From assembly GCF_000515315.1 (NCBI RefSeq), contig NZ_KI911562.1:3009220-3073219 (forward strand): DNA of 64,000 nucleotides. The letters are read 5' to 3'. The DNA is from Asinibacterium sp. OR53 (lineage in GTDB: Bacteria; Bacteroidota; Bacteroidia; Chitinophagales; Chitinophagaceae). Numbering within the stretch: position 1 is the stretch's first letter; each line of letters opens with the position of its first letter. Shown one piece after another: positions 8,510 to 36,603 of this stretch. The notes under the pieces are model-generated. The model ran no database searches. It had not been told where the DNA came from and worked only from the letters and a program-made list of their open reading frames with translations. The position numbers and the translations under genes were made by a program.

Positions 8510-9798
8510 AGACCGGTTGTATGAGCATGGTAACCACGTTGTGCAATGAGTGCTTTGCGTACACCGGCCTGCCTGAACAAGTCCAGCGGACGCAGTGCGC
8601 CGCCTGAACGTAATCTCGCTTCTGCAACCAGCGGCCGCAGGTCGGTGCGGTAAACTTCCTGTAATATTTCTTGTGCGGCTGCCACGTCGTTGTTCTCCTG
8701 TGCGTGGCGCAGTGCTGCCTGGTCTACCAGCAATGCCTGTGCATAAGCCAGTCGTATGGCTTCTACCGATTGCAGCAGGTCTTCCAGCGGGTCTTTGATA
8801 TTATGCGAAGCATCGATCATCCATCCCAAATCAGCAGCGTGGTTCATACCTCGCGCATCCATGCCTTCCACCAGTTCGTTGAAAATAAGGAAGAGTTGAT
8901 AGGGATTGATGGAGCCTACAGTGAGGTCATCATCGCCATATTTGGAATCATTGAAATGGAAACCTGCCAGTTTTCCTTCCATCAGCAACAGCGAAACGAT
9001 CTGTTCGATGTTCGCATTTGGTAAATGGTGACCTAGATCGACCAATGTATAAGCTTGCGGACCGAGTTTGCTGGCATAGAGATAGGATTGTCCCCAATCT
9101 CCTACCGTCATAGAATAAAAATTGGGTTCGAATGCTTTGTATTCAACGAACATTTTCCAGTCTTTCGGCAATGCCGCATATATCTCCTGCAAACTTTCCA
9201 ATGTGCGCTGGAATGCTTTCCTGAAATTCAACTGACCCGGAAAGCAGGAACCATCCGATAACCAAACGGTGAGCGCTTGCGAGCCGAGGGCTTCACCGTG
9301 ACGTATCACTTCCATATTGTGTTCAATGGCTTGCCTGCGCACCTGCTCATTCAGGTGTTGAAGTGATCCGAATTTATAAGAATGCGCTTGACCGGGCTGG
9401 TCCTGGAAAGTGTTTGAATTCACGGCATCGAAACGAAGTCCGTGTGAAGATGCCAATTCCCTGATCGCTCTCGGGTCACTGGGTATATCCCAGGGAATGT
9501 GTAATGAGATAGCACCACTGCCCTGGTTTAACCTGTGCAGCAAAGCCACGTCTTCTATTTTTTCTTCGAGGCTACGCGGCTCGCCGCCACCCGGAAATCT
9601 TCCGAAACGCGTACCGCCGGTACCCAATGCCCAGGATGGAATTGCTACCTGGAAATCCTGTACCAATTTGATCACGCGCTCGGGATCAGCAATACGGTCT
9701 TTCAGCGCAGTGAGCGCTTTTGCATGTTGCGCATAATGAGTTTCGTTGTGCGCCGTTATTGCGGCTTTGTTGACAAGCATTGTTCTATCGTTTAGCAA
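8506..9798 (-). CDS. rhaI: L-rhamnose isomerase (RhaI type)
   Basis: 430 aa, a TIM-barrel sugar isomerase of the RhaI group found in Gram-positives, Bacteroidota and others rather than the enteric RhaA type. Conserved stretches include AVNSNTFQDQPGQAHSYKFG, WLSDGSCFPGQ, TLVDLGHHLPNANIEQ and GFHFNDSKYGDDDL, which carry the metal-binding His and Asp residues. It interconverts L-rhamnose and L-rhamnulose. The first Met is at 9798; a second at 9780 (MLVNKAA) is an equally possible start. It lies 42 bp after the aldolase/dehydrogenase gene and overlaps the kinase by 4 bp. Confidence 0.88.
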   Translation of the reverse strand: MLNDRTMLVNKAAITAHNETHYAQHAKALTALKDRIADPERVIKLVQDFQVAIPSWALGTGGTRFGRFPGGGEPRSLEEKIEDVALLHRLNQGSGAISLHIPWDIPSDPRAIRELASSHGLRFDAVNSNTFQDQPGQAHSYKFGSLQHLNEQVRRQAIEHNMEVIRHGEALGSQALTVWLSDGSCFPGQLNFRKAFQRTLESLQEIYAALPKDWKMFVEYKAFEPNFYSMTVGDWGQSYLYASKLGPQAYTLVDLGHHLPNANIEQIVSLLLMEGKLAGFHFNDSKYGDDDLTVGSINPYQLFLIFNELVEGMDARGMNHAADLGWMIDASHNIKDPLEDLLQSVEAIRLAYAQALLVDQAALRHAQENNDVAAAQEILQEVYRTDLRPLVAEARLRSGGALRPLDLFRQAGVRKALIAQRGYHAHTTGL

Positions 9799-9840
9799 TC
9801 TTTATCAAATATCAAACCTTATTCATCACCAGCCACCTTA

Positions 9841-23919: not shown

Positions 23920-24528
23920 TTATTTGCCGGGGGATGGAGATATTACTTTATAGCCTGTTTCATTTTCGATGACGCCAGCCAGTTGTTGCAACGATATACT
24001 CGTGCTATCGAATTGGATGGTTACAGTGCCCTGGGGATAAGAGGTGTGAACCTGTTGCACACCTTTCTTTTTCAGCAAAGCGTTGTTCACATGTCCCTCG
24101 CAGGCTTCACAGTCCATGCCCTGTAAGTGTAATACAGCCTGCTGCTGGTTGGGCAAATGATTCGCTGCCTGTTGCTGCGGGATTTGAGGTTGCAAATATT
24201 TTGCATAATAGGGAAAGGCTGACAGCAAAAGGGAGACCGCCGCAACGATCCAAAGAAAAGATTTTGATTGCAAAAAGCTGCGCTTTGTTTCGCATGCACA
24301 TTCGTCTTTCGCTTTTGGTTTATACGCCTGGTAAAAAGCAAACCCCAGGATCAATACCGTTGCCCCTAACAAGTAAGGCCTGAGCGGTGCAGCCCAGCTA
24401 AATGCGGCAACAGCGCTGCCGGTACCGCTTATAATGGCCAGTGCAGGAACAATACAGCATAACGATGATGTCAGCGCCAGCACCAGTCCGGAACCAAGCA
24501 GTATCTTATTGTTTTTTTCGTTGCTCAT
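23920..24528 (-). CDS. merTP: Fused mercuric transporter MerT-MerP
   Basis: 202 aa. MerT part: first membrane helix with the vicinal pair C24-C25 (SSLCCIVPAL), a second helix, the cytoplasmic CAC pair C77/C79 and a third helix (about 91-107). MerP part: an HMA domain with GMDCEAC (C140, C143) and GYKVISPS at the end. In MerTP proteins the HMA domain captures Hg(II) and passes it through the membrane cysteines to cytosolic mercuric reductase. No merA or merB is in the window, so it may import another thiophilic metal or work with a reductase elsewhere. Its ATG overlaps the ArsR stop by 4 bp (24525-24528). Confidence 0.88.
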   Translation of the reverse strand: MSNEKNNKILLGSGLVLALTSSLCCIVPALAIISGTGSAVAAFSWAAPLRPYLLGATVLILGFAFYQAYKPKAKDECACETKRSFLQSKSFLWIVAAVSLLLSAFPYYAKYLQPQIPQQQAANHLPNQQQAVLHLQGMDCEACEGHVNNALLKKKGVQQVHTSYPQGTVTIQFDSTSISLQQLAGVIENETGYKVISPSPGK

Positions 24529-24899
24529 ATTGCCGCTGCTTTTGCATTCAACTGGTTGATGATCTTAAAGAACGGCCTCAACAATTTCAGGTGCTCCGTT
24601 TTAAGGGAATAGAAAATCGTTTGACCCTCTTTACGCGATTCGATGATATTACCATCTTTCATTTTGCGCAGGTGCTGCGAAATAGCTGGTATGCTCATGC
24701 CAAGGATATCACTGAGGTCACAGGGGCAAAGTTCTTTTTCTTCTTCCAGCAGGTATAAGATCTTCAGCCGGACGTCGTTTCCGGCCAATGACAAGATACC
24801 AGATAGTTGCGAAAATGATCTTTCATTGTCAGCTATCTTTTCCCTGCAATCATTGATCTGCTCCGGATTGGCATTTTCACGAATACAAGTCCTCCTCAT
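24525..24899 (-). CDS. ArsR/SmtB-family metal-responsive regulator
   Basis: 124 aa from ATG 24899. The open frame also allows GTG 24917, but that codon overlaps a consensus -7 element (24917-24924), so the shorter start is preferred. A winged helix (about 35-105) carries ELCPCDL with C58/C60 in the DNA-binding region and HTH DILGMSIPAISQHLRKM. Two more cysteines (C5, C18) are in the N-terminal extension. This layout resembles regulators such as CadC that bind soft metals between the N-terminus and helix 3. It probably represses its own operon with merTP and the GDCCVxC gene until metal binds. Using ArsR rather than MerR to control MerT is uncommon outside Bacteroidota. Confidence 0.88.
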   Translation of the reverse strand: MRRTCIRENANPEQINDCREKIADNERSFSQLSGILSLAGNDVRLKILYLLEEEKELCPCDLSDILGMSIPAISQHLRKMKDGNIIESRKEGQTIFYSLKTEHLKLLRPFFKIINQLNAKAAAI

Positions 24900-24916
24900 A
24901 ACGAATAACTTTCTCA

Positions 24917-24924
24917 CAAAAATA
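24917..24924 (-). promoter_or_regulatory. -7 promoter element of the arsR-merTP operon
   Basis: On the minus strand the sequence is TATTTTTG, an exact TAnnTTTG match. A TTG (plus-strand CAA at 24945-24947) lies 20 bp upstream, the right distance for the -33 element. Transcription would start about 24909, about 10 bp before the ATG at 24899. Confidence 0.6.
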
Positions 24925-25006: not shown

Positions 25007-25408
25007 TTATTTTTTTCCACCGGGTTTCCTGCTGGCCATTTTCACACTCTGCAACTGAATGGCCGACACTTCCCCCGGAATGGCCAGCGCGAAAGGATAC
25101 TTGAGATGATACTTTTCTGTTGCACTCGGGATGCTTGGATGATCCTTGGGCAACCACATCCCATGAAACTGCAAGCCTTGTACGGCCAAAAGTCTTATCC
25201 TATCGGGCAATATGGTCCCTGAAACCGCAGGCTGTCGCAACAAAAGCTGCATATGCCGGCTCCCAGGGGAAGATTTGAAGTACAGCAAGGCTTTGCTGCT
25301 GTCGAAGGCGTAATAACACGCGAAACAATGAGGTCTGCCGTCCCCATCCACACAGCAGATCGAAGCGCATGTTTGCCGCTCGATAAACCGAATGATCGAC
25401 TCTTCCAT
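25007..25408 (-). CDS. Pyridoxamine 5'-phosphate oxidase-like (FMN split-barrel) protein
   Basis: 133 aa. The N-terminal ICCVDGDGRPHCFACYYAFD and LLYFKSSPGSRHMQLLLRQPAVSGTI match the split-barrel flavin-binding fold of the PNPOx-like superfamily. The C-terminal half is short and differs from true PdxH, so it is not the pyridoxal-phosphate enzyme; it could be a haem- or flavin-binding oxidoreductase. The stop is near a run of lysine codons (GGKK). It lies 4 bp after the CerR-like gene, at the downstream end of the putative ceramide operon. Confidence 0.72.
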   Translation of the reverse strand: MEESIIRFIERQTCASICCVDGDGRPHCFACYYAFDSSKALLYFKSSPGSRHMQLLLRQPAVSGTILPDRIRLLAVQGLQFHGMWLPKDHPSIPSATEKYHLKYPFALAIPGEVSAIQLQSVKMASRKPGGKK

Positions 25409-25412
25409 ATAG

Positions 25413-26414
25413 TTATTGTTTTAGCCACCCTGCTTCCCTGTACCAGCCGATGGCCTGCCTGAGACCTTCTTCCAGCCCAAAACAGGGCTTGAATCCGAGC
25501 TCTGTCATCTCCGGGCAACAGACGCTCCAGTTAAGCGCCTTGAAATCCCGGAGACGGTCCCGGTTCAGGAAGGTAGCCCTCCCTGTGATATACCCCATTG
25601 CCTCTGCGATACTTGCGACGCCTGATACCATCCAGGCCGGCAGTGCCACCGGGATGGCGCTCTTGTTCAGAACAGAGCCTGCGATATGGGCAAAACTCTT
25701 CTGCGTATACACACGGAGATCGGATATCAGGAATTGTTTGTGCAAAACCGGTGATTCCACGCATAAAAAAACTGCCTGGCAGAGATCATTCACATGCAGG
25801 AAACTAAGCAGTCGACCCTCATCCCTCAATCCGATATCAAGCCGCTGTTGTAAGCACTTCAGTACTGGTAAAAAGCCCGTGTCCCGCGGGCCGTACACGG
25901 CAGTGGGATTGATAATGACAAACGGAAAATCCCTGAGAGCGAAAAGAAACTGTTCGGCTTCCAGCTTGCTTTGCCCATATTTCGACACAGGGTTTCGCTC
26001 CTGGGCAAGAGAAATAGGCGTTCTCTTGACGCCAGGCCCGAACGAGGCCAGGCTGCTGAGGTAAACAAATTTACGGGGAATAAGGCCATTCCGCATCAGC
26101 GCATGGACCAAACGCCTCGTGTGCCCGCAATTCACCACGCGGTAATCAGCCGGGCGAACGGCTTTGGTTACACCAGCGGCATGAATGACCACGTCCAGTT
26201 TGTCATACCTATCCCTGAACCCTCGCAGGGCAAGATCCAGCGCCTCGTCGTCGCTAAGATCCAGTTCCAGGAAGCGGATACCGGGATGCGCCAGGTATTT
26301 GCGTCGGCTGCTGTTCCTTATTCCCGCAAAGGTATTGAAGCCTCTTTGGAGAGCTTCGTCCACTAAAGCGCTGCCGATAAAACCGCTTGCTCCCGTGATC
26401 AAAATATTACGCAT
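25413..26414 (-). CDS. NAD-dependent epimerase/dehydratase family protein, probable ceramide reductase (CerR-like)
   Basis: 333 aa extended short-chain dehydrogenase. The nucleotide motif is GASGFIG (G8, G11, G14), and the catalytic pair is Y146/K150 in KYGQSK with an upstream Ser in YLSSLASFG. In Caulobacter and Bacteroides an enzyme of this family, CerR, reduces the 3-keto group during sphingolipid synthesis. I assign that role mainly from context: it follows an acyltransferase gene with an 8-bp overlap and a serine-palmitoyltransferase gene before that. Other members act on sugar nucleotides or flavonoids, so the assignment is an inference. Confidence 0.75.
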   Translation of the reverse strand: MRNILITGASGFIGSALVDEALQRGFNTFAGIRNSSRRKYLAHPGIRFLELDLSDDEALDLALRGFRDRYDKLDVVIHAAGVTKAVRPADYRVVNCGHTRRLVHALMRNGLIPRKFVYLSSLASFGPGVKRTPISLAQERNPVSKYGQSKLEAEQFLFALRDFPFVIINPTAVYGPRDTGFLPVLKCLQQRLDIGLRDEGRLLSFLHVNDLCQAVFLCVESPVLHKQFLISDLRVYTQKSFAHIAGSVLNKSAIPVALPAWMVSGVASIAEAMGYITGRATFLNRDRLRDFKALNWSVCCPEMTELGFKPCFGLEEGLRQAIGWYREAGWLKQ

Positions 26415-27552
26415 GCTCGTTCAGGTATCTTATATAACAACGCCGCCGTTTATGCTGCGTGGCCTCATAGTGTTCCCAGATGGCGCGGATGTTGCGATTG
26501 GTTTCCAGTTCGGGGTTGGACTCGGCATAGGCAATGCCATTTGCGATGTACGATTTTGTGATCTCATGCATCAGCAAGGCAACGGCTCCCTTCCCTTGCC
26601 ATGCTTTATCGACGGCTACCAGGTACAGGTCGGCGAGGTTGTTTTTTCTCAATGCCTTCAGGATATACGCAAACCCAAAAGGCAACAATCTCCCCTTTAC
26701 CTTTTTCAGGGCGGCGGAGAGCGAAGGCATAGTGATCCCACACGCTATCAGTTTGCCGTTCTCATCGGTCACCAGCGGAACGAAATCGGTACGGATAAAC
26801 GAAAAATACTGTTTGGTGTAATATGCGATCTGCTTTTCCGTCAGAGGGACTACTCCATATAGATGGGAATAGGTTTCATTGATCAGGTCGAAGATAGCAT
26901 TTGCGTAAGGAAGGATGTCTTTGGGTCGGCGCGCCTTTATTACCTGCAATCTGAATCGCTGCCTAACAACGGCGGCCATCCTCTCCAGTTTCTCCGGCAT
27001 TGTTGACGGCACCTTTATCTGGTATTCGACCCAATCGGCATCCTTTACATAGCCGGCCTTTTCCATCAGGGATGGGTAATAAGGATAATTGTAAATGGCA
27101 GCCAGTGTGCCCACCTGATCGAATCCATTCACTAGCATTCCTTCGCGGTCCAGGTCGGTAAAGCCCATCGGGCCGTGGACCGCGGTCATGCCTGTTTCAC
27201 TGGCCCAGATCTCGACCTGGGCGAGCAAGGCAAGGCCGACGCTGTCATCATCTTCAAAATCGAACCAGCCAAAACGCATATACTTGCTGCCCCATTTGTC
27301 GATATAGGCCTGGTTAAGGATGCCCGCAATGCGCCCGACTATTCTCTCTTGCCGGTATGCCAGCCAATAGCGAGCTTCGCAATAGTCGAAAGCCGGGTTT
27401 TTGTCCTTCCGCAATGTGGCCATCTCGTCAAAACGCAAGGGAGGCACATAAAAAGGATCATTCTTGTACAACCGGTAGGGGAAGTCAATAAAATTCTTTA
27501 GCTGCCTTGGGGCCATCACCTCCCGGATCACGATGTCCATTGGATTTGTCAT
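26407..27552 (-). CDS. GNAT-fold acyltransferase, probable bacterial ceramide synthase (bCerS/YghO-like)
   Basis: 381 aa from ATG 27552. The frame is open to 27678, but the extension lies inside the upstream gene. Landmarks are FPYRLYKNDPFYVPPL near the N-terminus, GRIAGILNQAY, GFTDLDREGMLVNGFD in the middle and a C-terminal GNAT acceptor region (LYLVAVDKAWQGKGAVALLMHE) with NRNIRAIWEHYEA. This two-lobed architecture resembles the YghO/bCerS group, of which the Caulobacter member N-acylates 3-ketosphinganine. It starts 4 bp after the serine-palmitoyltransferase stop and overlaps the reductase gene, consistent with that pathway. A different acyl acceptor cannot be excluded. Confidence 0.72.
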   Translation of the reverse strand: MTNPMDIVIREVMAPRQLKNFIDFPYRLYKNDPFYVPPLRFDEMATLRKDKNPAFDYCEARYWLAYRQERIVGRIAGILNQAYIDKWGSKYMRFGWFDFEDDDSVGLALLAQVEIWASETGMTAVHGPMGFTDLDREGMLVNGFDQVGTLAAIYNYPYYPSLMEKAGYVKDADWVEYQIKVPSTMPEKLERMAAVVRQRFRLQVIKARRPKDILPYANAIFDLINETYSHLYGVVPLTEKQIAYYTKQYFSFIRTDFVPLVTDENGKLIACGITMPSLSAALKKVKGRLLPFGFAYILKALRKNNLADLYLVAVDKAWQGKGAVALLMHEITKSYIANGIAYAESNPELETNRNIRAIWEHYEATQHKRRRCYIRYLNEHA

Positions 27553-27556
27553 ACGT

Positions 27557-28762
27557 TTATGCCTGTTTGATACCAAATAGTTGAAGTTCGCGGCTGACCT
27601 TTTCAAGCGCAGACAAGGCCATGTCGAGCTGCCGGCGGGTATGAGTGGCCATGACCGACATCCGCACCATAGCCGCATCGCTCCTGACCGCCGGGGACAC
27701 TACCGGGTTCACAAATATGCCCCGGTCGAACAAACGTTGCGTAAATTCGAATGTGAGCCGGTTATCCCTGATGTAAATGGGTATGATGGGAGTCATGGAA
27801 CAATGGGTATCGAACCCCAGCTGATCCAACATTTTCGCCATATAAGCGGTATTGTCCCGGAGGGCTTCCTGTCTCTCCGGTTCTGCCTGGATGATCTCCA
27901 GCGCAGCCATGGCGGCGGCGGCGGCGGAAGGTGGAATGCTGGCGCTGAAGATCAGCGCCCTGCTATGGTGCTTGAGATAGTTGATCATTTCCCGGGTGGA
28001 CGCGACAAAACCGCCGACAGAAGCAAGCGACTTGCTGAAGGTGCCCATAATGATATCTACCTGGTCTGTCAGTCCGAAATGATCGGCCGTACCCCGGCCC
28101 GATTCTCCCAGCACGCCGATAGAATGGGCATCGTCTACCATGAGAAGCGCCTCGTATTTTGCAGCCAGCGCTGCGATCTCCGGCAGTTTGCAGATATCTC
28201 CCTCCATGCTGAATATGCCGTCCACAACGATCATCCTAATGCCTTCTCCTTCCACGGCACGCAGGATCCTTTCCAGGTCATTCATATCGTTGTGCGCGAA
28301 TTTCAGGACCCGGGAAAATGAAAGCCGGCTGCCCTCTATGATAGAGGCGTGATCCGCCTCGTCCAATATCAACACGCCGTTCCTTCCCGTCAATGACGCC
28401 ACGGTTCCCAGGTTTGCTTGGAAACCGGTAGTAAAAACCAACGCTGCCTCCTTCCCGACAAAATCAGCCAGCCTTTCTTCCAGCCGGATATGCAGCCGGG
28501 AAGTGCCGTTCAGAAATCTCGACCCCGAACAGCTGCTGCCGTATTTGTCGATCGCCTGTTTCGCAGCGGCGGTCACTTTCGGATGGTTGGTAAGCCCCAT
28601 ATAGCTGTTGGAACCGAACATCAGGAGTTTTTTACCCTGGATGACTATCTCCGTATCCTTGTTCTCGCCGATAGGCCTGAAATAAGGATAGATTCCGGCA
28701 TTTTTTAATTCGTCGGGCGCCGTATACCCGGCTAATTTTTCAACTAACTTTCTTTGTATCAT
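27557..28762 (-). CDS. spt: Serine palmitoyltransferase-like alpha-oxoamine synthase
   Basis: 401 aa from ATG 28762 (MIQRKLVEKL), preferred because it aligns with the usual N-terminus; the open frame continues upstream through the DGC gene. It is a fold-type I PLP enzyme: FGSNSYMGLTNHP, SCSGSRFLNGT, H138 (stacks on PLP), DDAHSIGVLG (D210/D211, H213) and the Schiff-base K244 in TFSKSLASVGGF. The family condenses serine (SPT), glycine (KBL, HemA) or alanine (BioF) with an acyl-CoA. FSKSLASVGGF, the N-terminal PYFRPI and the neighbours favour SPT, making 3-ketosphinganine. The start overlaps the DGC stop by 23 bp. Confidence 0.82.
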   Translation of the reverse strand: MIQRKLVEKLAGYTAPDELKNAGIYPYFRPIGENKDTEIVIQGKKLLMFGSNSYMGLTNHPKVTAAAKQAIDKYGSSCSGSRFLNGTSRLHIRLEERLADFVGKEAALVFTTGFQANLGTVASLTGRNGVLILDEADHASIIEGSRLSFSRVLKFAHNDMNDLERILRAVEGEGIRMIVVDGIFSMEGDICKLPEIAALAAKYEALLMVDDAHSIGVLGESGRGTADHFGLTDQVDIIMGTFSKSLASVGGFVASTREMINYLKHHSRALIFSASIPPSAAAAAMAALEIIQAEPERQEALRDNTAYMAKMLDQLGFDTHCSMTPIIPIYIRDNRLTFEFTQRLFDRGIFVNPVVSPAVRSDAAMVRMSVMATHTRRQLDMALSALEKVSRELQLFGIKQA

Positions 28763-29150
28763 ATTGTTCTTTACGCTGAAGTTTGCGGACTGATCTTTCG
28801 ATACCGCTGAGAAGACGGTCTGCTTCATTCGGATCGAAATCGATATGGTTCTGTTTTTTAACGCCATGATCCCACAATTGGACATGAAGGGACGGGACTA
28901 CGCCATGATTGCCCAGGCAAGCCCTGACACATGCAAGCGGGCAACCGTCGATAGCAACGATCTTCCTTCCGGACAATGCCTTTCGGACAAGGCTTTTCAC
29001 ATTGCCTCCGACACCCGCGATGCAGGACATCTCCGCCAACCCGTTCCTGTCCAGACGCAGCGCAAGGTAATTGGCCATCTGTGCAGCGCTGGAACAGCCG
29101 GAACAGGAATACACCAGTGGAATCTCCTCTATTTCAGTAGTATTTTTCAT
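28740..29150 (-). CDS. DGC-domain putative zinc-binding protein
   Basis: 136 aa. It carries the DGC family pattern: YSCSGCSSAAQMANYLA at the N-terminus, GVGG in the middle and the name-giving DGCPLACVRACL at about 69-80. The conserved cysteines suggest a metal or Fe-S site; the biochemical function is not established. It lies 18 bp downstream of the nitric oxide reductase gene on the same strand and overlaps the following spt gene, so it is probably co-transcribed with both. Association with a nitric oxide reductase suggests a role in nitrosative stress, but that is inference. Confidence 0.8.
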   Translation of the reverse strand: MKNTTEIEEIPLVYSCSGCSSAAQMANYLALRLDRNGLAEMSCIAGVGGNVKSLVRKALSGRKIVAIDGCPLACVRACLGNHGVVPSLHVQLWDHGVKKQNHIDFDPNEADRLLSGIERSVRKLQRKEQYDTKKVS

Positions 29151-29168
29151 TGTGAAGCATTTCTCTAT

Positions 29169-31508
29169 TTACCCCTGAACCTGGGGGATTAAACATTGAT
29201 CCGGATTCGTTATCCTTTTTTCGGCGACCGCCTCCTTTACCGCTTTTCTGCGGGTAAGGACGAACCAAACCAACGGTATCACTCCCCCGCAAGTGAACAC
29301 GGCGCCTCCTGCAATACGCATCCAGGTAAGGGTCTGGAAAACCGGGCCCTCGACAAAAGCCCCGCTGCGCGCGTACCAAAGACCGTTTTCCGTCACGGCG
29401 TTGAATTGGTAGATACCGGCCGGGAACAGATCAAGCAGGACCATCAGCAGCAAGCCGGTATTAATAGACCAGAAAATACCGGTAACGATCCGGGTATTCC
29501 AACGCTCGGGCTTGAAAAGGAGCTGGCAACAAAATAGAATGGCGGCCAGCGCAAGGTTACCGTATACGCCCATGAGCGCGGCATGCCCGTGGTTGACTGT
29601 TAGATAGGTTCCATGTTCATAGTAATTGGCGATCGGCAGGTTGATGATGAAGCCGAGTACGCCTGCACCGAAAAAATTCCAGAAATTGACCCCTAGCAGG
29701 AACAAAAATACTTCGCGGAATCCGAAGACTGTCTTTCCATTTCCATTCGTTCCGCCACCATTTTCCAGTATACGGGGCAGTTTGCTGAACCGGTACGCCT
29801 CCAGCGTAAGTAACACCAGCGGTATCACCTGCAATGTCGAAAAGACGGAGCCCAGCGCCATCGTAAACACTGGTTTCCCGTTCCAGTAAAAATTATGGGA
29901 GATGCCCAACAACCCTGAGCCCAGGAAAAGCAACGTGGCCAGGTAGATCACTCGGATGGCCGCCTGCTTGCTCACCAACCCCATCAATACCATGAAATAA
30001 CCAATCAGCACGGTGGTGAACACCTCGAAAAATGCTTCTGCCCACATATGGATGACCATCCATCGCCAGAAATCGGCGATCACGAAGTTGGTCTTCGGCG
30101 TAGCGATGAACCCGGAGACGAGCAGCAGGATAATGCTCGCCGCGGCATATACCAGCCAGTTCGGCAATGCCCACGGCTGCCGAAGACTCATCACGGGGCG
30201 GACTCCCCTGTAGAGCACGATGAACCACAATACAAACACGGTGCCCAGCACTACTTCCCACAATTTACCCATCTCGATGTATTCCCAGCCCTGGTGACCT
30301 AGCCAATACCACTTATTACCGAGGATACCCTTCGGCCCCAGCAGAATACCCGCAAATGCACCGGCTACCAGCAAAGCGGTAAGCCAAAAGACAATACGGA
30401 TCAGGCGCACCTGGCCCGCCGGCTGCACGGGCGAGACCAGCGACATCATAAAAAAAGACGCCCCGATCCAGCAGGCCGATATCCACAACAGGGATAGCTG
30501 TACGTGCCAGCTCCTGGTAACTGTCACCGGCAACACCTTGGAAAGGTCAACGCCGAAGAAATGAACAAAGCCTACAAAATCATGCACCGTCAGGATGCCG
30601 GCGAGCACCTGGATGCCGAATAGGATGACGGCCGTATAAAAGAAGGGGAAAGAGGCCCTTTGAACAGCATCGGGCCGGAATCTTCCGACCTCCTGCTTCG
30701 TCATGAACGACCGGGCATTCTTGGTGTATACCCTGTCATCCAGCTTTTCCAGTCTGCCATGATAATACAGCACCAACCCCAGGCCGAATATCAATCCCAG
30801 GGAGCCGAGGATACTCCATAAAATGATGGCCGGACTCGGCCGATTGCCCGCAGCCGGGTCGTATGGCCAGTTATGGGTATAGCTGTAGACCTTGCCCGGC
30901 CGTTCTACTCCGCACACCCAGGCTCCCCAGAAAAAGAAAGCGCTCAACGACCGTATCTCCTCACTATCGGTGAGATACCCGGCCGGTTTAAACGACTCAG
31001 GGCCGTGAGCTGCGAACTTTTGAAGCTGGAATTTCAATAGGTCCTCAGCGGCATAAGCCTGTGCGTCCGTCAACGTCACGGAGTTGGTGCCGGCGTTATA
31101 TCGGTTATCCTTGATCTCCGACTTTACCTGCTCGCCGATCCCTCTATCGGCTAAAACGTCTTGCAGATCGGCCGGTCGTTTCGCGAGGTAGTACTGCTGC
31201 ATGGACAAAGCAATGTGGTGAAGGGCCTCCGCGGTGAAATCGGGCCCCCTGTTGGCACCGTCACCGAACATGCTCCCGTAGTCCATCAACGCATATTTCT
31301 GGAAGATGGCCTGTCCGTTCAATATATCCGCTTTGCGGTAGATGATCGCTCCTTCCGCCGAAACATAGTCGGGGACAGGCGGCGCCTCTGTATACGTGTG
31401 GATACCGATCATCATGACCCCGGCGGCGCTGACGGTAAAGATCAACAGCAAGGGAAGCCACCAGTTCCGGGGGTTAAGCAGGTAATTGATAAAATTTTCT
31501 TTTGCCAT
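29169..31508 (-). CDS. norZ: Quinol-dependent nitric oxide reductase, single-subunit
   Basis: 779 aa from ATG 31508 (MAKENFINYLLNPRNWW); a further in-frame start 21 bp upstream would cross the promoter. The N-terminal periplasmic domain (about 35-215) replaces NorC, and about 12-14 membrane segments follow. Conserved metal-ligand stretches are HDFVGFVHFFG, SWHVQLSLLW, GHQGWEYIEMGKLWE, VIHMWAEAFFEV and NHGHAALMGVYGNLA, as in qNOR/NorZ. It reduces two NO to N2O in the inner membrane with electrons from quinol. Divergent from the QueD-like gene across a palindromic operator. Detoxification and denitrification are both plausible roles. Confidence 0.93.
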   Translation of the reverse strand: MAKENFINYLLNPRNWWLPLLLIFTVSAAGVMMIGIHTYTEAPPVPDYVSAEGAIIYRKADILNGQAIFQKYALMDYGSMFGDGANRGPDFTAEALHHIALSMQQYYLAKRPADLQDVLADRGIGEQVKSEIKDNRYNAGTNSVTLTDAQAYAAEDLLKFQLQKFAAHGPESFKPAGYLTDSEEIRSLSAFFFWGAWVCGVERPGKVYSYTHNWPYDPAAGNRPSPAIILWSILGSLGLIFGLGLVLYYHGRLEKLDDRVYTKNARSFMTKQEVGRFRPDAVQRASFPFFYTAVILFGIQVLAGILTVHDFVGFVHFFGVDLSKVLPVTVTRSWHVQLSLLWISACWIGASFFMMSLVSPVQPAGQVRLIRIVFWLTALLVAGAFAGILLGPKGILGNKWYWLGHQGWEYIEMGKLWEVVLGTVFVLWFIVLYRGVRPVMSLRQPWALPNWLVYAAASIILLLVSGFIATPKTNFVIADFWRWMVIHMWAEAFFEVFTTVLIGYFMVLMGLVSKQAAIRVIYLATLLFLGSGLLGISHNFYWNGKPVFTMALGSVFSTLQVIPLVLLTLEAYRFSKLPRILENGGGTNGNGKTVFGFREVFLFLLGVNFWNFFGAGVLGFIINLPIANYYEHGTYLTVNHGHAALMGVYGNLALAAILFCCQLLFKPERWNTRIVTGIFWSINTGLLLMVLLDLFPAGIYQFNAVTENGLWYARSGAFVEGPVFQTLTWMRIAGGAVFTCGGVIPLVWFVLTRRKAVKEAVAEKRITNPDQCLIPQVQG

Positions 31509-31526
31509 AAAGCAGGGTTTATTTGG

Positions 31527-31534
31527 CAAATATA
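31527..31534 (-). promoter_or_regulatory. -7 promoter element of norZ
   Basis: On the minus strand TATATTTG matches TAnnTTTG exactly and is 18 bp before the norZ ATG at 31508. No TTG is present 19-20 bp upstream. That region is occupied by the 30-bp palindrome, which begins at the next base. Confidence 0.65.
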
Positions 31535-31564
31535 ATAATTAAGGACAATTTTGTCCTTAATTAT
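31535..31564. promoter_or_regulatory. Perfect 14-bp inverted repeat, probable NO-responsive operator
   Basis: Two 14-bp arms (ATAATTAAGGACAA and its exact complement) are separated by 2 bp. The site abuts the norZ -7 element on one side and includes the first two bases of the divergent QueD-like ATG (31563) on the other. A dimer bound here would control both transcripts, the second of which includes the Rrf2 regulator gene. NsrR-type Rrf2 proteins bind such long palindromes and leave when NO damages their Fe-S cluster. The sequence itself is unlike the enterobacterial NsrR site. Confidence 0.7.
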
Positions 31565-32000
31565 GTTACAGATCACAAAAATATTTCGTTTCGAAACGGC
31601 GCATGCCATACACGGATACCCCGGCCCGTGCAGCAACCTCCACGGGCATTCCTACCGACTGCACGTTACCGTAGCAAGGCAGCGCGACAATGATGGTCGC
31701 TTACCACCGACGGGGTTCATCATGGATTTCAAGCAGCTGAAACGCCTCGTGAATCATGGGATCGTCTCCCTGTTCGATCATCACACCATCCTGTCATCGG
31801 CCTACCTGGTCTGCCATCCTCCCGTCGCCGCGATTTCGAATCTATGGATATGGGAAACCGAGCCGACGGCAGAGAATATGCTGCTTTATATTCGCGATTC
31901 CCTGCAGCAACAGCTGCAGCCCGATGTGGTTCTGAGAAGACTCAGGCTCTTTGAGACCGACGACTCTTATGCCGAATGGGAGGAGGATAAAATGTGTTAA
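31563..32000 (+). CDS. 6-pyruvoyl-tetrahydropterin synthase / QueD-like protein
   Basis: 145 aa from ATG 31563. It has the zinc and catalytic pattern of the family: FETAHAI, CSNLHGHSY with a Cys and two His, MDFKQLKRLV, FDHH and a late Glu in RLFETDDSYAEW. QueD makes 6-carboxytetrahydropterin for queuosine; animal and other homologues make 6-pyruvoyl-tetrahydropterin. No other queuosine gene is nearby. Because it is transcribed together with an Rrf2 regulator and a hemerythrin, opposite a nitric oxide reductase, a pterin needed under NO stress is possible but unproven. Its start overlaps the operator, so its mRNA may have almost no leader. It is slightly longer than typical QueD. Confidence 0.82.
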   Translation: MLQITKIFRFETAHAIHGYPGPCSNLHGHSYRLHVTVARQRDNDGRLPPTGFIMDFKQLKRLVNHGIVSLFDHHTILSSAYLVCHPPVAAISNLWIWETEPTAENMLLYIRDSLQQQLQPDVVLRRLRLFETDDSYAEWEEDKMC

Positions 32001-32020
32001 ATTGCGCATCAAAACGTTCC

Positions 32021-32476
32021 ATGTTCTCAAAAGCAACCGAATACGCCTTGCGGGCTGCTATTTTTATTGCCCAGAAGAGCAGCGAGGATAACAAGCTGGG
32101 CATCGATGAGATCGCCAGGGCCATCAATTCACCCCGGTCGTTCACGGCAAAGACTCTCCAGTTGCTCAGCGCAGACAATAAGATCGTGCATTCCACACGC
32201 GGCCCCAACGGCGGGTTTTATATGTCCGAAAAAGCCCGGAAGCTTCCCGCACGAGCCATCCTGGAAGCCATGCAGGAGGATGACTTGCTAGAAAAATGCG
32301 TCCTCGGCCTGAAACAGTGTTCCGAAGCAAAACCCTGCCCGATGCATTCGGAATACAAATCGATCAAGCTGCAATTGAAAACCCTTTTCGAAACCACCAC
32401 TATCCAGCAGCTTGCCGATGAGTTGGGGAAGGGCGATAGCAAGACGAAGGCAGGAGTTACGATATTATACAAATAA
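32021..32476 (+). CDS. Rrf2-family regulator, NsrR-like
   Basis: 151 aa from ATG 32021 (MFSKATEYALRAA, the standard Rrf2 start); GTG 31994 overlapping the previous gene is a less likely alternative. It has a winged helix with IDEIARAINSPRSFTAKTLQLL, then GPNGGFYMSEKA. Three cysteines C93, C100 and C106 (KCVLGLKQCSEAKPC) match the cluster-binding spacing of NsrR/IscR. NsrR senses NO through a [4Fe-4S] cluster and derepresses NO-detoxification genes. The palindrome at 31535-31564 is its likely binding site, giving feedback control of its own operon. An iron-sulfur-sensing IscR-type role is the alternative. Confidence 0.85.
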   Translation: MFSKATEYALRAAIFIAQKSSEDNKLGIDEIARAINSPRSFTAKTLQLLSADNKIVHSTRGPNGGFYMSEKARKLPARAILEAMQEDDLLEKCVLGLKQCSEAKPCPMHSEYKSIKLQLKTLFETTTIQQLADELGKGDSKTKAGVTILYK

Positions 32477-32484
32477 AATAATTT

Positions 32485-32967
32485 ATGGAACCGAAACCTG
32501 TCAAGCGAGATGAAAATATCCTGAAATTATCCAGGGATCATCACTTTGGCTTGCTGTTTTGCTGGAAGATCAGGCAGGGGTTGAAAAATGGGGCAAGCCC
32601 TGCCCGCATCGTTGCTTATATCCGGCATTTCTGGGAGAAACACCTCCGGGAACACTTTGAAGAGGAAGAGACTATTCTCTTCACGCCACGGAAGGACATC
32701 CTGGTGGAAAAAGCATTGGATGATCATCGGGATATCCGGCTCCATATCGAATCGCTTGCAGCAGACGCGAAACACGGGGAGCTCGACCTCTTAGCCGATA
32801 AAGTCGACAAGCACATCCGCTTTGAAGAACGGCAGCTTTTTCCACATCTGGAGAAGATATTGAGCAAGGAGCAGCTAAAAGATATAGGGGAGCGATTGGG
32901 AAAGAACCAAACTCCCCTGAAAGACGAATACGCGGATGAATTCTGGGCTATTCAGGATACCAAATAA
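32485..32967 (+). CDS. Hemerythrin domain-containing protein
   Basis: 160 aa, all-helical. Candidate di-iron ligands are H19/H20 (LSRDHHFG), H57 and E61 (REHFEEEET), H81 (DDHRDI), and H110 and E114 (KHIRFEER), the pattern of a hemerythrin/HHE domain. Proteins of this kind repair iron centres damaged by NO (YtfE/RIC type) or bind O2 or NO directly. It lies 8 bp after the Rrf2 gene, so it belongs to the NO-response operon. Its last 20 bp overlap the 3' end of the convergent Crp/Fnr gene. It lacks the extra N-terminal ScdA domain of RIC proteins. Confidence 0.87.
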   Translation: MEPKPVKRDENILKLSRDHHFGLLFCWKIRQGLKNGASPARIVAYIRHFWEKHLREHFEEEETILFTPRKDILVEKALDDHRDIRLHIESLAADAKHGELDLLADKVDKHIRFEERQLFPHLEKILSKEQLKDIGERLGKNQTPLKDEYADEFWAIQDTK

Positions 32968-33637
32968 ATTCCCGAAGCTTTTTTTCGTCAATGATCCGGA
33001 TATATTTGCCCTGGGTACTGACGATACCTTCACCGGACCACTTCGTGAACAGCCGGAAAACCGCTTCATAGGCCGTCCCCGCATAGCACGCGATATCCAG
33101 CCGGGTGATGGGAACGGAAATATACCCTTCTGCATTCAGTCCAAAAACCTCTTGGATAGTAAAAAGCGCTTCTGCGACCCTGCCCTTGACCGGCATGACC
33201 GCAAGGCTGCGCATCCGGCTTTCCGCTCTTTGCAGCTCCCCGGCATATAGTTGCATCATCGCATAAAGAAAAGATGGGTTGGTCTTGAAGGTACTTTCCA
33301 GGAACTCATTGCGGATAAAACAGATCCTGGTGTGATCGAGGGCCGTTGCCGATACCGGGAAGGCTGTTCCGTGGGTTTGACCACGATGCCCGAGTACGTC
33401 TCCAAGGGTTGCAAAACGAACGATGAAATCTTTATCACCACCCCAGTATTGGTGAATTTTAACCGCTCCATCATAAATGAAATAGATGCCCCTGACTTCC
33501 TCCCCCTCCCGAAAAATGGCTCGACCCTTCTTGAAGTAAAGGGTTTGTTTTTCGGTCGCTATCGCCCCGTTCCACTCCGGAAGACAATTCTGGCATAAAA
33601 AGCATCGGCTGAGGTCGCAGGTATCTCGGTCTGTCAT
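32948..33637 (-). CDS. Crp/Fnr-family regulator with N-terminal cysteine cluster
   Basis: 229 aa. Before the cyclic-nucleotide-fold domain (about 30-150) is TCDLSRCFLCQNC with C7, C12, C15 and C18. The C-terminal HTH contains TAYEAVFRLFTKW. The cysteines could hold an Fe-S cluster and make it an FNR-like O2 or NO sensor; many Bacteroidota regulators encoded next to denitrification genes begin like this. It is the last gene of the nirK operon, overlapping the SCO stop by 4 bp (ATGA). The CRP-geometry palindrome upstream of nirK (36651-36674) is its probable target, making a self-controlled loop. Its 3' end overlaps the hemerythrin gene. Confidence 0.87.
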   Translation of the reverse strand: MTDRDTCDLSRCFLCQNCLPEWNGAIATEKQTLYFKKGRAIFREGEEVRGIYFIYDGAVKIHQYWGGDKDFIVRFATLGDVLGHRGQTHGTAFPVSATALDHTRICFIRNEFLESTFKTNPSFLYAMMQLYAGELQRAESRMRSLAVMPVKGRVAEALFTIQEVFGLNAEGYISVPITRLDIACYAGTAYEAVFRLFTKWSGEGIVSTQGKYIRIIDEKKLREFIWYPE

Positions 33638-34281
33638 CGGTCCGTTAATTGATCGTTGTGTTGTACAAGTCCTTTGATCGTCAGGGCGGCTGACACCGTC
33701 TGTGCTTCAACCCCATCCAGGATCTGTCGTATCCCACCACGCCGGTCTAAAATATAGATGGCATTGGAATGGCTGAAGTCGCCGTTTGCAAGCCGTTGGT
33801 ATCTCACGTTCAGCGCCATGGACAATTCTCTTACCTGGCCGGCGTTGCCATGGAGCAGCACCCAGTGATCGTCCAGTTGTTGTTGTCCGGCGAACCGGCT
33901 CATCTGTACAGGATCGTCCCGCTGCACGTCGAACGACACCAGGACGAATCCGACCTCATTTTTTTCGGCCGTAGGCAAAGCTCTTTGTATGGCTTTCATG
34001 TCCGCCACCAGTCGGGGGCAAGCATACCTGCAATGCGTGAAAACCATCGCCACGACTTGCACTTTTCCCTTCAAATCCCATAAAGACAAGGAATGGTTGT
34101 GTTGATCCGTCCACAAGCCGGGCAATTGGTACACGGAAGCGTCGCCGGACAGCCGGGTTGTAAGAAGCGATACGGCGGCGGCATCTTCTTTTGCGCAGCA
34201 AGGCTTAGGAGCAACGACAGGTCTCCTGTTACAGGACAATACCAGGATGCAGCCAAGCAATAAGAAGATATGGAATTTCAT
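33634..34281 (-). CDS. SCO1/SenC-family copper protein, lipoprotein
   Basis: 215 aa with a lipoprotein signal (GCILVLSC, lipobox C17). It is a thioredoxin-like domain with the copper site C84xxxC88 (THCRYACPR) and H171 (GDFSHSNA). There is also a CC pair at 28-29. SCO proteins deliver copper to the CuA or other copper centres of oxidases in the periplasm. Placed between nirV and the Crp/Fnr gene in the nirK operon, it most likely helps insert copper into the nitrite reductase. It overlaps the NirV-like gene by 4 bp and the regulator gene by 4 bp. Confidence 0.87.
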   Translation of the reverse strand: MKFHIFLLLGCILVLSCNRRPVVAPKPCCAKEDAAAVSLLTTRLSGDASVYQLPGLWTDQHNHSLSLWDLKGKVQVVAMVFTHCRYACPRLVADMKAIQRALPTAEKNEVGFVLVSFDVQRDDPVQMSRFAGQQQLDDHWVLLHGNAGQVRELSMALNVRYQRLANGDFSHSNAIYILDRRGGIRQILDGVEAQTVSAALTIKGLVQHNDQLTDR

Positions 34282-35117
34282 GGCGAACAGTTGTAATTTG
34301 AATGATGGTGTGCATTGTCTTCAATATCCTGCGCGCACCGGAACCCCAGGCTTCCCACGGTATAAGCAGCCTGGAGGCTTCCGCGGAAGGCGTACCGCAT
34401 ATACGCAGCATAGTCTTCCTTATTGAAGGTGCCGAGCGAACCGGCCCCACAGGTGAAAGTATTGGCAGCCTTCCCTGCGCTCTGGATATTGATGCTGTTG
34501 AAATCGCTTACCCACTCCCAAACCAGGCCATGCATATCATAGACGCCAAAATGATTGAGGTAGATGGATTCTACTGGTGGCAGGACGGCAGGCGTGGGGC
34601 GGTCATACCATTCGAGGATGATCCTAAGCAAATTGTTCCCCTTTTTCATATTCTTCGGGAGCGCGCTTGCGGCATATTCCCATTCGGCAAGTGTCGGTAG
34701 CCGGGCTCCTCTCCACTTGCAATACGCGTCGGCGGCAAACCAGGACACATTGGTAACCGGGCTGTTGATGATCTTATCATTGCCAATGTCGAAATCCCCT
34801 GCCCACTGTTTAAGGTAATGATCATCCGCGAATATCCTCGACACCCTGGACCTCGACCATTGAGGGTTAGCCTTGACAAATAGCAGGAACTCCGCGTTGG
34901 TAACGGCATGTTTGTCCAGGTAAAAGGCGGGAACCTGGATTATTACAGGCTGATTGTCGGATTGAAGAAAGGGACGATAATAACCTCCCGGTATCTTTAC
35001 CATTACGGCGGAGCCACCTTTTTTCCTGGCCGCGGAAGCTGTCTTGCTGCCTTGGGCCCGTTGGGTTCCGGGACTGGCAGCCAGCATAAACAACATCAGG
35101 ATGGCGACTGTCTTCAT
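34278..35117 (-). CDS. nirV: SUMF1/FGE-sulfatase-domain protein, NirV-like
   Basis: 279 aa with a signal peptide (to about residue 20). The fold is that of formylglycine-generating enzymes: FYLDKHAVTNAEFLLFVKANPQW, SPVTNVSWFAADAYCKWRGARLPTLAEWEYAAS, and a C-terminal AFRGSLQAAYTVGSLGFRCAQD. Such SUMF1-type proteins are called NirV when next to copper nitrite reductase genes. Their role is unknown and they are not expected to modify a sulfatase here, since no sulfatase gene is nearby. It lies 9 bp after nirK. I could not tell whether the substrate-binding cysteines of true FGE are conserved. Confidence 0.82.
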   Translation of the reverse strand: MKTVAILMLFMLAASPGTQRAQGSKTASAARKKGGSAVMVKIPGGYYRPFLQSDNQPVIIQVPAFYLDKHAVTNAEFLLFVKANPQWSRSRVSRIFADDHYLKQWAGDFDIGNDKIINSPVTNVSWFAADAYCKWRGARLPTLAEWEYAASALPKNMKKGNNLLRIILEWYDRPTPAVLPPVESIYLNHFGVYDMHGLVWEWVSDFNSINIQSAGKAANTFTCGAGSLGTFNKEDYAAYMRYAFRGSLQAAYTVGSLGFRCAQDIEDNAHHHSNYNCSP

Positions 35118-35126
35118 ATCGGTAGT

Positions 35127-36572
35127 TTACTGGGTCCTGACTTTTTTAACGTCTTTTACCTTTACCTGGGCGCTTTTATTACCCCAACTGTTCCGCACAT
35201 AGGTCAAAATGTTCGCAATTTGATCGTCGGTCAGGGATAGCTGTGGCATCACACCTTGAAAGTGTTTCCCATTCACCGTTATGGACTCGTTGTTGATCCC
35301 ATGGAGGAGCACTCCTATTCCCATATCCTGCCGGCCCATCAGGAAGTCCGATTTGGCCAGAGGAGGAAATGCTCCAGGCATACCCTGGCCCGTGGGTTGG
35401 TGACAAGAAGAGCAATTCAGTTGGAAAAGCGCCTGGCCGTTCTTGTAGCTGTCGGCAAACGAAAGCTCAGGGGATTCCGGCACTACCGGGTATTCATCTT
35501 CGGCAAGTTCTTCCTTACCCGGTTGATAGGGCTGGTCTTTGATCTTGCCGGAATAAATGTTCATATCGGCCGTCCCGGTGACCACCAGTTGGGCAAGTGC
35601 GCCTTTGTTGAAGGCCCTGAATATGGAATGGTCCACAATATTGAATATCCCCGGTTCCTTACAAGTAAATTCAACTATTGCCGCCCCCCCGGAAGGGATC
35701 AGTGTGGTGCCGACATTCTGGTGCACCTGGGAACCTCCCTCCCGGTAGACTTTGTCGAATATCTGGCCAATGACATGAAAGGAAGATACCAGGTTGGGGC
35801 CTCCATTACCAACATAGATCCGCACCCGGTCGCCAACTTTCGCCTGCAGAGCATGGTTCCCGGTGGCCGCCCCTACTGACCCATTGAACACGACGTATTC
35901 CGGCTCCTCTTTAATAGCTTTATCCAAATCGAAAGGCTGCAGTCCAGGCTCCCCGGTCCTACCCTTGGTGTAAAACTCGCCTTGCATGATATAGAACTCC
36001 CTATCGACCTTGGGTAGCCCGTCTTTGGGTTCTACCAGGATAAGCCCGTACATTCCATTGGCGATGTGCATCCCAACCGGCGCGGTAGCGCAATGATATA
36101 CGTATAATCCCGGGTTCAGCGCGCGAAAGCTGAATATCGATGTATGCCCGGGTACGGTCATACTGGCTTCTGCCCCGCCCCCCGGGCCATTCACCGCATG
36201 CAGGTCGATATTATGGGGCATCTTATTATTAGGGTTATTGCTGAGGTGTAATTCTACCTCGTCGCTCTCATGGACTTTAATAAAAGGGCCAGGCACGGTT
36301 CCACCGAAGGTCCAAAAGGTATAATTAACCCCATCTGCCAGTTTCATTTCCTTTTCGACCACCTCGATACGAACAATGACTTTTTCGGGCGCCGCGAAAT
36401 CGCGGCTTGCCGGCACGAACGGAGCATGTGTCAGCTGTGCCGGATATTCGCCGATGACAGCTGCGGTATCACTGATTGAACTGACGTCGGGATGCCCCGG
36501 ATGACAGGCTGAAAGACAGATGATTAGAGATAAAATAATTGCCGAGTAGGGTGCAGGAGACGGAAGCTTCAT
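35127..36572 (-). CDS. nirK: Copper-containing nitrite reductase with C-terminal cytochrome c domain, lipoprotein
   Basis: 481 aa from ATG 36572; an in-frame start at 36599 is less likely. A lipobox ([11 protein letters not shown]23) is followed by two cupredoxin domains (about 60-335) and a cytochrome c domain (about 375-465). Type 1 copper ligands: H120, C161, H169, M174. Type 2: H125, H160, H315. The haem site is CSSCH (C387, C390, H391) with M442 as the likely axial ligand. It reduces nitrite to NO at the outer face of the membrane. The fused haem would pass electrons from membrane donors to the copper site. It heads a four-gene operon with nirV, SCO and the Crp/Fnr gene. The NO it makes would be removed by norZ. 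Confidence 0.92.
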
Positions 36573-36603
36573 CACTTTTGAATTTTTAGTAACAAACACG
36601 GGC

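Follow-up and report, generated by a model that had tools for sequence, protein, structure and literature searches.

A Putative Dihydroceramide Module Within a Nitric Oxide Reduction Operon of Asinibacterium sp. OR53, Probably Under an Rrf2-Family Repressor

Gene Run at the Locus

We analyzed a stretch of 64,000 nucleotides (hereafter the window) from the genome of Asinibacterium sp. OR53, a member of the Chitinophagaceae (contig NZ_KI911562.1, positions 3,009,220 to 3,073,219; the source genome is a single contig of 3.716 Mb), in which three ceramide-synthesis genes lie beside genes for nitric oxide (NO) reduction. Our analyses suggested that a dihydroceramide module probably sits here within an NO-reduction operon, under a dedicated, NsrR-like and probably iron-sulfur (Fe-S) repressor of the Rrf2 family. 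The genes and sites concerned are as follows, in window coordinates.

25007..25408, minus strand: YhbP-like protein of the PNPOx fold, last in the run (NF002900 66 bits, cut-off 176; PF01243 26.2 bits, cut-off 28.1)
25413..26414, minus strand: CerR-like NAD-dependent epimerase/reductase, a short-chain dehydrogenase/reductase (SDR) of 333 aa (PF01370; 27% identity to the E. coli CerR-type protein)
26407..27552, minus strand: putative bCerS/YghO-type N-acyltransferase of the type-2 clade, 381 aa, predicted tandem GNAT (YghO homology; AlphaFold 2 and Foldseek)
27557..28762, minus strand: spt, serine palmitoyltransferase (SPT), 401 aa (NF047600 642.2 bits; PDB 8guh 471.6 bits)
28740..29150, minus strand: cysteine-rich DGC-domain protein (PF08859)
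29169..31508, minus strand: norZ, quinol-type nitric oxide reductase, qNor (PF00115 and PF22085)
31527..31534, minus strand: Bacteroidota-type -7 box TATATTTG oriented towards norZ, with 6 nt between it and the operator (from the sequence)
31541..31558, no strand: predicted operator AAGGACAATTTTGTCCTT in the divergent norZ / PTPS-Rrf2 promoter (expectation-maximization (EM) motif; position weight matrix score 26.3)
31563..32000, plus strand: 6-pyruvoyl-tetrahydropterin synthase family protein (QueD/PTPS), divergent to norZ (TIGR00039 and TIGR03367 below their cut-offs; PDB PTPS match 8e-8)
32021..32476, plus strand: Rrf2-family regulator, divergent to norZ (TIGR00738 76.6 bits, cut-off 73.3)

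The minus-strand genes from norZ to the YhbP-like gene form one six-gene run (25007-31508), in which spacings never exceed 18 bp and some genes overlap: 18 bp separate norZ from the DGC gene, which overlaps spt by 23 bp; 4 bp follow between spt and the GNAT gene, an 8-bp overlap between the GNAT and SDR genes, and 4 bp before the YhbP-like gene. An arsR-type gene lies 89 bp further on. The initial annotation had placed three abutting or overlapping genes for SPT, GNAT and SDR at 25413-28762 on the minus strand, closely downstream of norZ and the DGC gene on the same strand, and this arrangement was borne out; the YhbP-like gene is a further member of the run. NorZ carries the NorB core and an N-terminal NorC-like domain (PF00115, PF22085) in a single chain, as a qNor does, and its gene most likely starts at ATG 31508 rather than at TTG 31529; the product had no NCBIfam match. 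The domain of the DGC protein is Pfam DGC (PF08859), and a diguanylate cyclase was thereby ruled out. No convincing PDB sequence match (best E 0.81) and no PHROGs or NCBIfam match were found for this protein.

Identity of the Three Enzymes

The first enzyme had been read as an SPT with the pyridoxal phosphate lysine at K244, and the profiles agree. It passes the Bacteroidota model NF047600 (642.2 bits against a cut-off of 640), while other models each remained below their own cut-off (BioF/Kbl subfamily 423 bits with a cut-off of 535, glycine C-acetyltransferase 400, proteobacterial SPT 392.5 and BioF 392). The BioF/KBL comparison that had been proposed as a check therefore also scored it as SPT. 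Its closest PDB match is the Sphingobacterium SPT 8guh (471.6 bits); K244 bears the same number as the lysine of 8guh, and H138, D210 and H213, presumably residues of the pocket, are likewise kept. It is highly improbable that this enzyme makes another base through cysteate acyltransferase, KBL or BioF activity. Such enzymes do share a common fold family with SPT, and the margin over NF047600 is 2 bits only, which counts against our assignment; on the other side, the match to the solved cysteate acyltransferase 28eh reaches only 232.7 bits, far below that to SPT, and the source genome encodes the other types separately, with a KBL-like member of the superfamily at C1:541323, a cysteate acyltransferase at C1:3173385 and a distant member at C1:3265324. 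The second of these (C1:3173385-3174494) matched 28eh with 544 bits and SPT with 228, and with this enzyme the source organism may make both sulfonolipids and ceramides.

The second enzyme had been called a GNAT of the YghO/bCerS type, which was supported with a qualification. It is a full-length homologue of E. coli YghO (27.5% identity over 374 aa; E 1.4e-42 in an 18-protein set) and ranked first in the genome when YghO was the query (E 5e-39; second match 3e-24). In a quick GNAT tree, however, it falls into a type-2 clade (support 100) apart from type-1 GNATs and from YghO, whose branch is long. Since its clade differs from that of YghO, the bCerS function is putative and assigned by homology only. 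The suggested structure comparison gave a tandem GNAT fold: Foldseek matched the AlphaFold model (pLDDT 88.9, 22 sequences) to tandem GNATs, with a best E of 8.5e-14 at TM 0.55 and a TM range of 0.55-0.60. No convincing PDB sequence match (best E 0.33), PHROGs match or NCBIfam match was obtained. A second, more distant YghO-like GNAT (24% identity to YghO) is encoded at C1:1411063-1412178 of the source genome.

The CerR-like reductase was likewise supported. It shares 27% identity over 326 aa with the E. coli CerR-type epimerase encoded next to spt, and was the first of five matches in the genome to the CerR reference (E 5e-23; next 7e-18). In the SDR tree, SDRs of type-2 modules form one clade (support 100), and CerR sits on a long branch of uncertain placement.

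Module Types and Linkage to Nitric Oxide Genes

Of 194 genomes sampled from the family, 49 passed the SPT cut-off, and the neighbourhoods of 44 of these, window included, were read. Two types of module were distinguished: the GNAT of type 1 is about 30% identical to that of the window, the GNAT of type 2 is 54-72% identical (wider set), and the two form separate clades. Type 1 comprises 27 loci (SPT alone in L214, L220 and L094), with flanks of about 9 kb on both sides in 20 loci, about 5.5 kb in five, and shorter in L102 and L094. The type-2 set of 44 consists of the window and the loci that remained when 11 duplicates, identical in SPT or GNAT sequence, were removed from 54; it was assembled from all Chitinophagaceae-like loci and four further SPT-bearing loci, and L156, an SPT-less locus of another lineage, was kept. 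Because of this assembly, the presence of SPT in 40 of the 44 is no evidence of co-occurrence. All three genes occur together at 21 of the 27 type-1 loci and 36 of the 40 SPT-bearing type-2 loci, and the order spt-GNAT-SDR recurs in all six congeners with a close spt, which speaks against a chance arrangement.

Genes for a qNor or NorCB, Rrf2, PTPS and DGC recur at type-2 loci. A nitric oxide reductase (NOR) was present at 11 of the 44 loci, Rrf2 at 14, and either of them at 17, compared with none of the 27 type-1 loci. Among loci flanked on each side by 4.5 kb or more, NOR or Rrf2 was near 15 of 30 type-2 and 0 of 25 type-1 modules (Fisher 1.3e-5). This contrast is inflated, since many of the type-2 loci had been collected for their similarity to the window. 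On the GNAT tree the NO-link label requires at least eight changes (17 of 50 labelled rows are linked). Gene orders also vary: the qNor gene is downstream in L105 and L144 and upstream in the window and in Ferruginibacter, and NorCB is divergent in L044, L139 and L140. The NorB of L141 was checked against PDB, with P. aeruginosa NorB as best match (2.5e-23); the remaining NORs were assigned by similarity.

Predicted Operator

The candidate operator between norZ and the PTPS-Rrf2 genes is an inverted repeat with 12-bp arms and a 2-bp centre (31537-31562). Seventeen upstream regions were chosen by hand for the EM search, which recovered a palindrome of 18 bp in 16 of them; the remaining one (L148) scores 25.0 as a whole site. 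The matrix was built from these sites, so its scores there are not independent. The Bacteroidota -7 consensus is TAnnTTTG, and this box occurs within 22 nt of 19 of 27 operator sites compared with 132 of 9800 random positions. Shuffled DNA gave seven matches of at least 18 bits in 5.6 Mb (shuffling by 3-base blocks for matrix scans and by single bases for the L132 alignment below, neither of which preserves dinucleotides). In the 3.7-Mb source genome the operator is the sole zero-mismatch site. A single-mismatch site at C1:544688 was rejected as a second operator, as it lies inside a gene that by eye is histidine-kinase-like, and own-genome matches with up to three mismatches were not above the control (33 versus 45 for the reversed pattern). 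No Fnr/Dnr boxes were found upstream of the operons; exact 5-bp gapped palindromes were present in 3 of 17 regions at best.

With the window counted in, 16 of the 40 type-2 loci that bear SPT have a site before spt or before the first gene of a run leading to it, compared with 0 of the 27 type-1 loci; the run heads that bear it are norC in L138, the DGC gene in L134 and norZ in the window. Sites independent of the matrix were found at spt in L047 and L136, with no NO genes in the stretch read. Others lie at the qNor gene of L105 and L144, and before a gene designated M643 in L142, L144 and L148. In five genomes (L263, L265-L268) spt and Rrf2 are on different contigs; the operator remains at spt there, and the Rrf2-PTPS promoter itself bears a matrix-independent one. 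L157, a locus of the culturable Flavisolibacter longurius BT320, combines spt-GNAT-SDR and the operator with an Rrf2 of 48% identity. In L132 the operator, the leader and about ten norZ codons are kept before spt (alignment score 68, shuffled maximum 26), and L132 has therefore probably lost norZ while spt stayed behind the operator.

These sites bear on the idea that the ceramide module is a mere passenger of a plastic locus, driven by the norZ promoter and functionally unconnected with the NO genes beside it. In keeping with it, 27 of the 44 type-2 loci lack NOR and Rrf2 within 9.5 kb in the stretch read, a search of 36 congeners yielded no full-length norZ, and the block looks acquired. We nevertheless consider it quite unlikely, given the repeated changes on the tree and the differing gene orders, the operator at spt itself both where no NO gene was in the stretch read and after norZ loss, and the lack of such a site at spt in all 27 type-1 loci.

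Some further matches concern the matrix itself. Stray matches of at least 14 bits, distant from SPT, were seen in L104, L115, L218 and L231, all four of type 1, and in L145. Loci L280, L282 and L284 of type-1 genomes carry an Rrf2 relative (44-46% identity) with an operator-like site beside it (20.8-24.5 bits), away from spt. M643 is a protein of about 600-640 aa that recurs in NO islands (L149, 12046-13977, with relatives in L138, L142, L144, L148, L155 and L157); the L149 copy had no Pfam or NCBIfam match. In addition, a U32 peptidase gene lies near the module or divergent to Rrf2-PTPS, with the operator region in common, in L119/L133, L105, L138, L263 and L265-L268.

Rrf2 Regulator

The divergent regulator belongs to the Rrf2 superfamily (TIGR00738). 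Its three cysteines (Cys93, Cys100 and Cys106, counted from ATG 32021) were invariant in 15 of 15 sequences, and no PDB sequence match was found at 0.001. The regulator follows the operator: an Rrf2 of at least 45% identity occurs in 15 of 15 operator-bearing genomes compared with 7 of 24 others (Fisher 7e-6), and one of at least 60% in 12 of 15 compared with 2 of 24.

Models of Rrf2 relatives all scored below cut-off (SUF regulator 54 bits, IscR 44.6, RirA 33, NsrR 25.8), and this spread would suit a regulator that senses iron, redox or Fe-S status as RirA or IscR do, with the module as a response to iron or oxygen limitation. This appears unlikely to us: regulator and operator travel with norZ and norCB, in several loci together with ScdA/hemerythrin genes, and the single real site in the source genome misfits a global iron regulator.

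The shared operator and the recurrent Rrf2 support co-regulation, and the tie of spt to NO reduction claimed by the initial annotation is therefore more than adjacency. A number of observations weigh against it. The link is variable: in four of seven congeners (G003, G010, G016, G036) the lipid genes have neither operator nor NO genes beside them, so that for the ceramide module it is optional; in G003 and G036, Rrf2 adjoins a NorB elsewhere in the genome. The module lacks an operator in the stretch read at 24 of the 40 SPT-bearing type-2 loci, some of which have little upstream DNA, and the operator of L132 is the weakest, at 15.1 bits. The even family draw alone gives 3 of 16 type-2 versus 0 of 27 type-1 loci linked (p 0.045); counting the window makes it 4 of 17 type-2 loci (p 0.018). 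The loci are mutually related, and most of all loci come from metagenome-assembled genomes (MAGs). The motif search was run with purpose-written EM code on AT-rich DNA. Furthermore, the regulator does not pass the NCBIfam NsrR model NF008240 (25.8 bits, cut-off 182), and we accordingly call it NsrR-like, not NsrR. Operator-less G003 and G235 have an Rrf2 at the 60% level (in G235, 139 bp upstream of spt were covered), and 7 of 20 type-1 genomes have a relative at 45%, though 0 of 20 at 60%. Finally, three Ferruginibacter-type loci (L148, L149, L155) keep qNor-DGC-GNAT under the operator, and SPT was not found in their genomes.

Distribution and Substrate of the Acyltransferase

Named genomes were scanned with 18 type-2 GNATs, and the best 80 of at least 575 confirmed loci were analyzed. 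Among these 80 are Chitinophagaceae, Cloacimonadota, Chloroflexota, Neomarinimicrobiota, KSB1, Ignavibacteria and a Thermoclostridium. SPT was in the stretch read for 33. For 43 of the remaining 47, whole genomes were searched for an SPT-like gene at 410 bits or more, a threshold set in this analysis (KBL-type matches score about 315-390 bits, and four genomes lie at 411-421): 35 have one elsewhere and eight do not (G252-G254, G256, G264, G283, G284 with a fragment only, and G293), three of the eight being Ferruginibacter-type. The suspicion that the GNAT is no ceramide enzyme, as other phyla lack a linked spt, is weakened by the SPT that most of them carry elsewhere.

The Ferruginibacter-type loci nonetheless suggest another division of the island, in which the type-2 GNAT and the DGC protein are the NO-linked part, the substrate extends beyond sphingoid bases to capnine-type sulfonolipid bases or another amine, and spt and cerR joined in some lineages. 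The runs of L148, L149 and L155 read qNor-DGC-GNAT-thioesterase-YhbP behind the same operator, with no SPT-level gene in the genome; cysteate acyltransferases are encoded by the source genome and by G253, the genome of L149 (610 bits to PDB 28eh); and in L148, within the NO island of a Chitinophagaceae MAG, DGC and type-2 GNAT share one frame of 528 aa (9536-11122). We regard this division as possible but somewhat doubtful. The SPT near 33 of the best 80 loci speaks for a ceramide synthase, and the SPT-like gene elsewhere in 35 of 43 genomes is what such an enzyme would lead one to expect.

Several rows of this survey deserve mention for themselves. In Cloacimonadota (L182, L183, L187, L188 and others) the type-2 bCerS-like GNAT lies apart from spt, which is consistent with the accessible part of a report on 33 Cloacimonadota MAGs, where no bCerS or CerR was within 10 open reading frames of Spt (PMC11334938). 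Type-2-like GNAT genes are paired, adjacent or overlapping, in L189, L203 and L208, in the last case downstream of the SPT gene. The Sediminibacterium MAG L176 clusters with congeners of the source organism in the GNAT tree. L160 ("Gammaproteobacteria") is nested among Chitinophagaceae, and rows of that kind may be mis-binned.

Proposed Mechanism and Comparison With Known Systems

Under the reading that we favor, an Rrf2 dimer would, in the absence of NO, occupy the palindrome (31541-31558) next to the -7 box of norZ and repress norZ-DGC-spt-GNAT-cerR-yhbP, presumably as a single transcript, as well as its own PTPS-Rrf2 transcript. NO, for example from the neighbouring NirK, would damage the Fe-S cluster and free the promoter. 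The qNor would then remove NO, while Spt would join serine and acyl-CoA, the GNAT would N-acylate the product and the SDR would reduce the keto group to give dihydroceramide, so that the membrane would change during the cell's processing of nitrite and NO. The enzyme families, the gene run, the operator with its recurrence and its match to the Rrf2, and the foreign composition of the block are computed results; the Fe-S cluster, NO as the signal, the single transcript, the lipid products and the benefit are inferred from them. The benefit may lie in an altered outer membrane in NO respiration or in the replacement of NO-damaged Spt, or the module may simply hitch-hike. A cysteine-poor, NO-resistant Spt copy was rejected, as type-2 SPTs average 3.25 cysteines compared with 2.44 in type 1, and Cys78 is present in 67 of 67.

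To our knowledge, when and why bacteria turn on sphingolipid synthesis is largely open. An operator and a regulator common to NO reductases and spt would supply a signal and a regulon as well as a role that can be tested, namely a membrane change in nitrite/NO respiration or NO stress. As a tentative generalization, NO could act directly as the transcriptional cue for sphingolipid synthesis in bacteria. An NsrR-like Rrf2 repressor of Chitinophagaceae with its own operator AAGGAYAAAWTTRTCCTT would then tie NO reductases to a switch in N-acyl lipids (ceramide with Spt, sulfonolipid where there is only cysteate acyltransferase), and the DGC protein, which is rich in cysteine and in one relative fused to the acyltransferase, would be a metal- or NO-responsive partner of ceramide synthase. 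Our search of openly accessible literature found no description of NO regulation linked to sphingolipid genes; as far as searched, the enzymes are of known kind and the NO-linked arrangement has not been described so far. In the accessible part of a 2026 preprint, Spt is named among the proteins in Bacteroides NO/nitrite cysteine-reactivity plots (PMC13370916), which hints at a tie to Bacteroides.

The module can be set beside several known systems, each as far as the accessible text of the cited papers describes it. Ceramide genes of Caulobacter and E. coli include spt, acpR, epi (CerR), aasR and aca/yghO (bCerS) (PMC9386255, PMC11087976), E. coli yghO and the spt-adjacent epimerase being counterparts of the Caulobacter genes (PMC9386255). 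The window resembles them in its gene clustering and in having homologues of Spt, of the YghO/bCerS-type GNAT and of the CerR-type epimerase family. It differs in that its run lacks acpR and aasR, its Spt is of the Bacteroidota type, its GNAT belongs to a separate clade, and qNor, DGC and an Rrf2 operator are linked. In Bacteroides, the Spt BT_0870 and the reductase BT_0972, which was picked by its likeness to the yeast enzyme, are unclustered (PMC9278070); the window shares the Bacteroidota-type Spt, whereas its three genes abut and its reductase is an epimerase-type SDR. It has been stated that sphingolipid-producing Bacteroidota do not encode spt, bCerS and CerR near one another (PMC11334938). 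Our data bear on this statement: in 57 of 67 SPT-bearing Chitinophagaceae-type loci, window included, the GNAT gene is no more than 1.7 kb and the SDR gene no more than 2.7 kb away from SPT.

On the regulatory side, the Streptomyces regulator ScNsrR has the cysteines Cys93, Cys99 and Cys105 (PMC9338935). The window regulator is likewise of the Rrf2 family with similarly spaced cysteines, and has a small predicted regulon that includes its own gene and NO-handling targets. Unlike in NsrR regulons, the operator has its own sequence, lipid-synthesis genes are included, and the regulator lies below the NCBIfam NsrR cut-off. The sulfonolipid pathway (cysteate acyltransferase and 3-ketocapnine reductase; PMC11211663) offers parallel chemistry; in contrast to it, the island enzyme is an SPT by profile and PDB match, and the cysteate acyltransferase of the source genome is encoded elsewhere.

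Acquired Block and Neighbouring Genes

Beyond the Rrf2 gene, the island continues with the following genes.

32485..32967, plus strand: a protein that we take to be hemerythrin HHE-like (weak, differently named NCBIfam match; part of the block defined by codon composition)
32948..33637, minus strand: Crp/Fnr-type regulator (related models below cut-off)
33634..34281, minus strand: a protein assumed to be SCO-like (no NCBIfam match)
34278..35117, minus strand: presumed formylglycine-generating-enzyme-like (SUMF1-type) protein (related matches below cut-off only)
35127..36599, minus strand: nirK, copper nitrite reductase with a C-terminal cytochrome c-like part (TIGR02376 365 bits, cut-off 296; ccoP match at 355-476)

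The mean GC content at third codon positions (GC3) is 0.60 for the 13 genes of 25007-36599 and 0.50 for the 24 other window genes (Mann-Whitney p 8e-6). Because of this higher GC3, the ceramide and nitrite/NO genes look like a single acquired block of common foreign composition. Outside the block, at 23920-24917, adjoin genes that we take to be an arsR-type regulator and a MerT/MerP-like gene, and their GC3 is that of the rest of the window.

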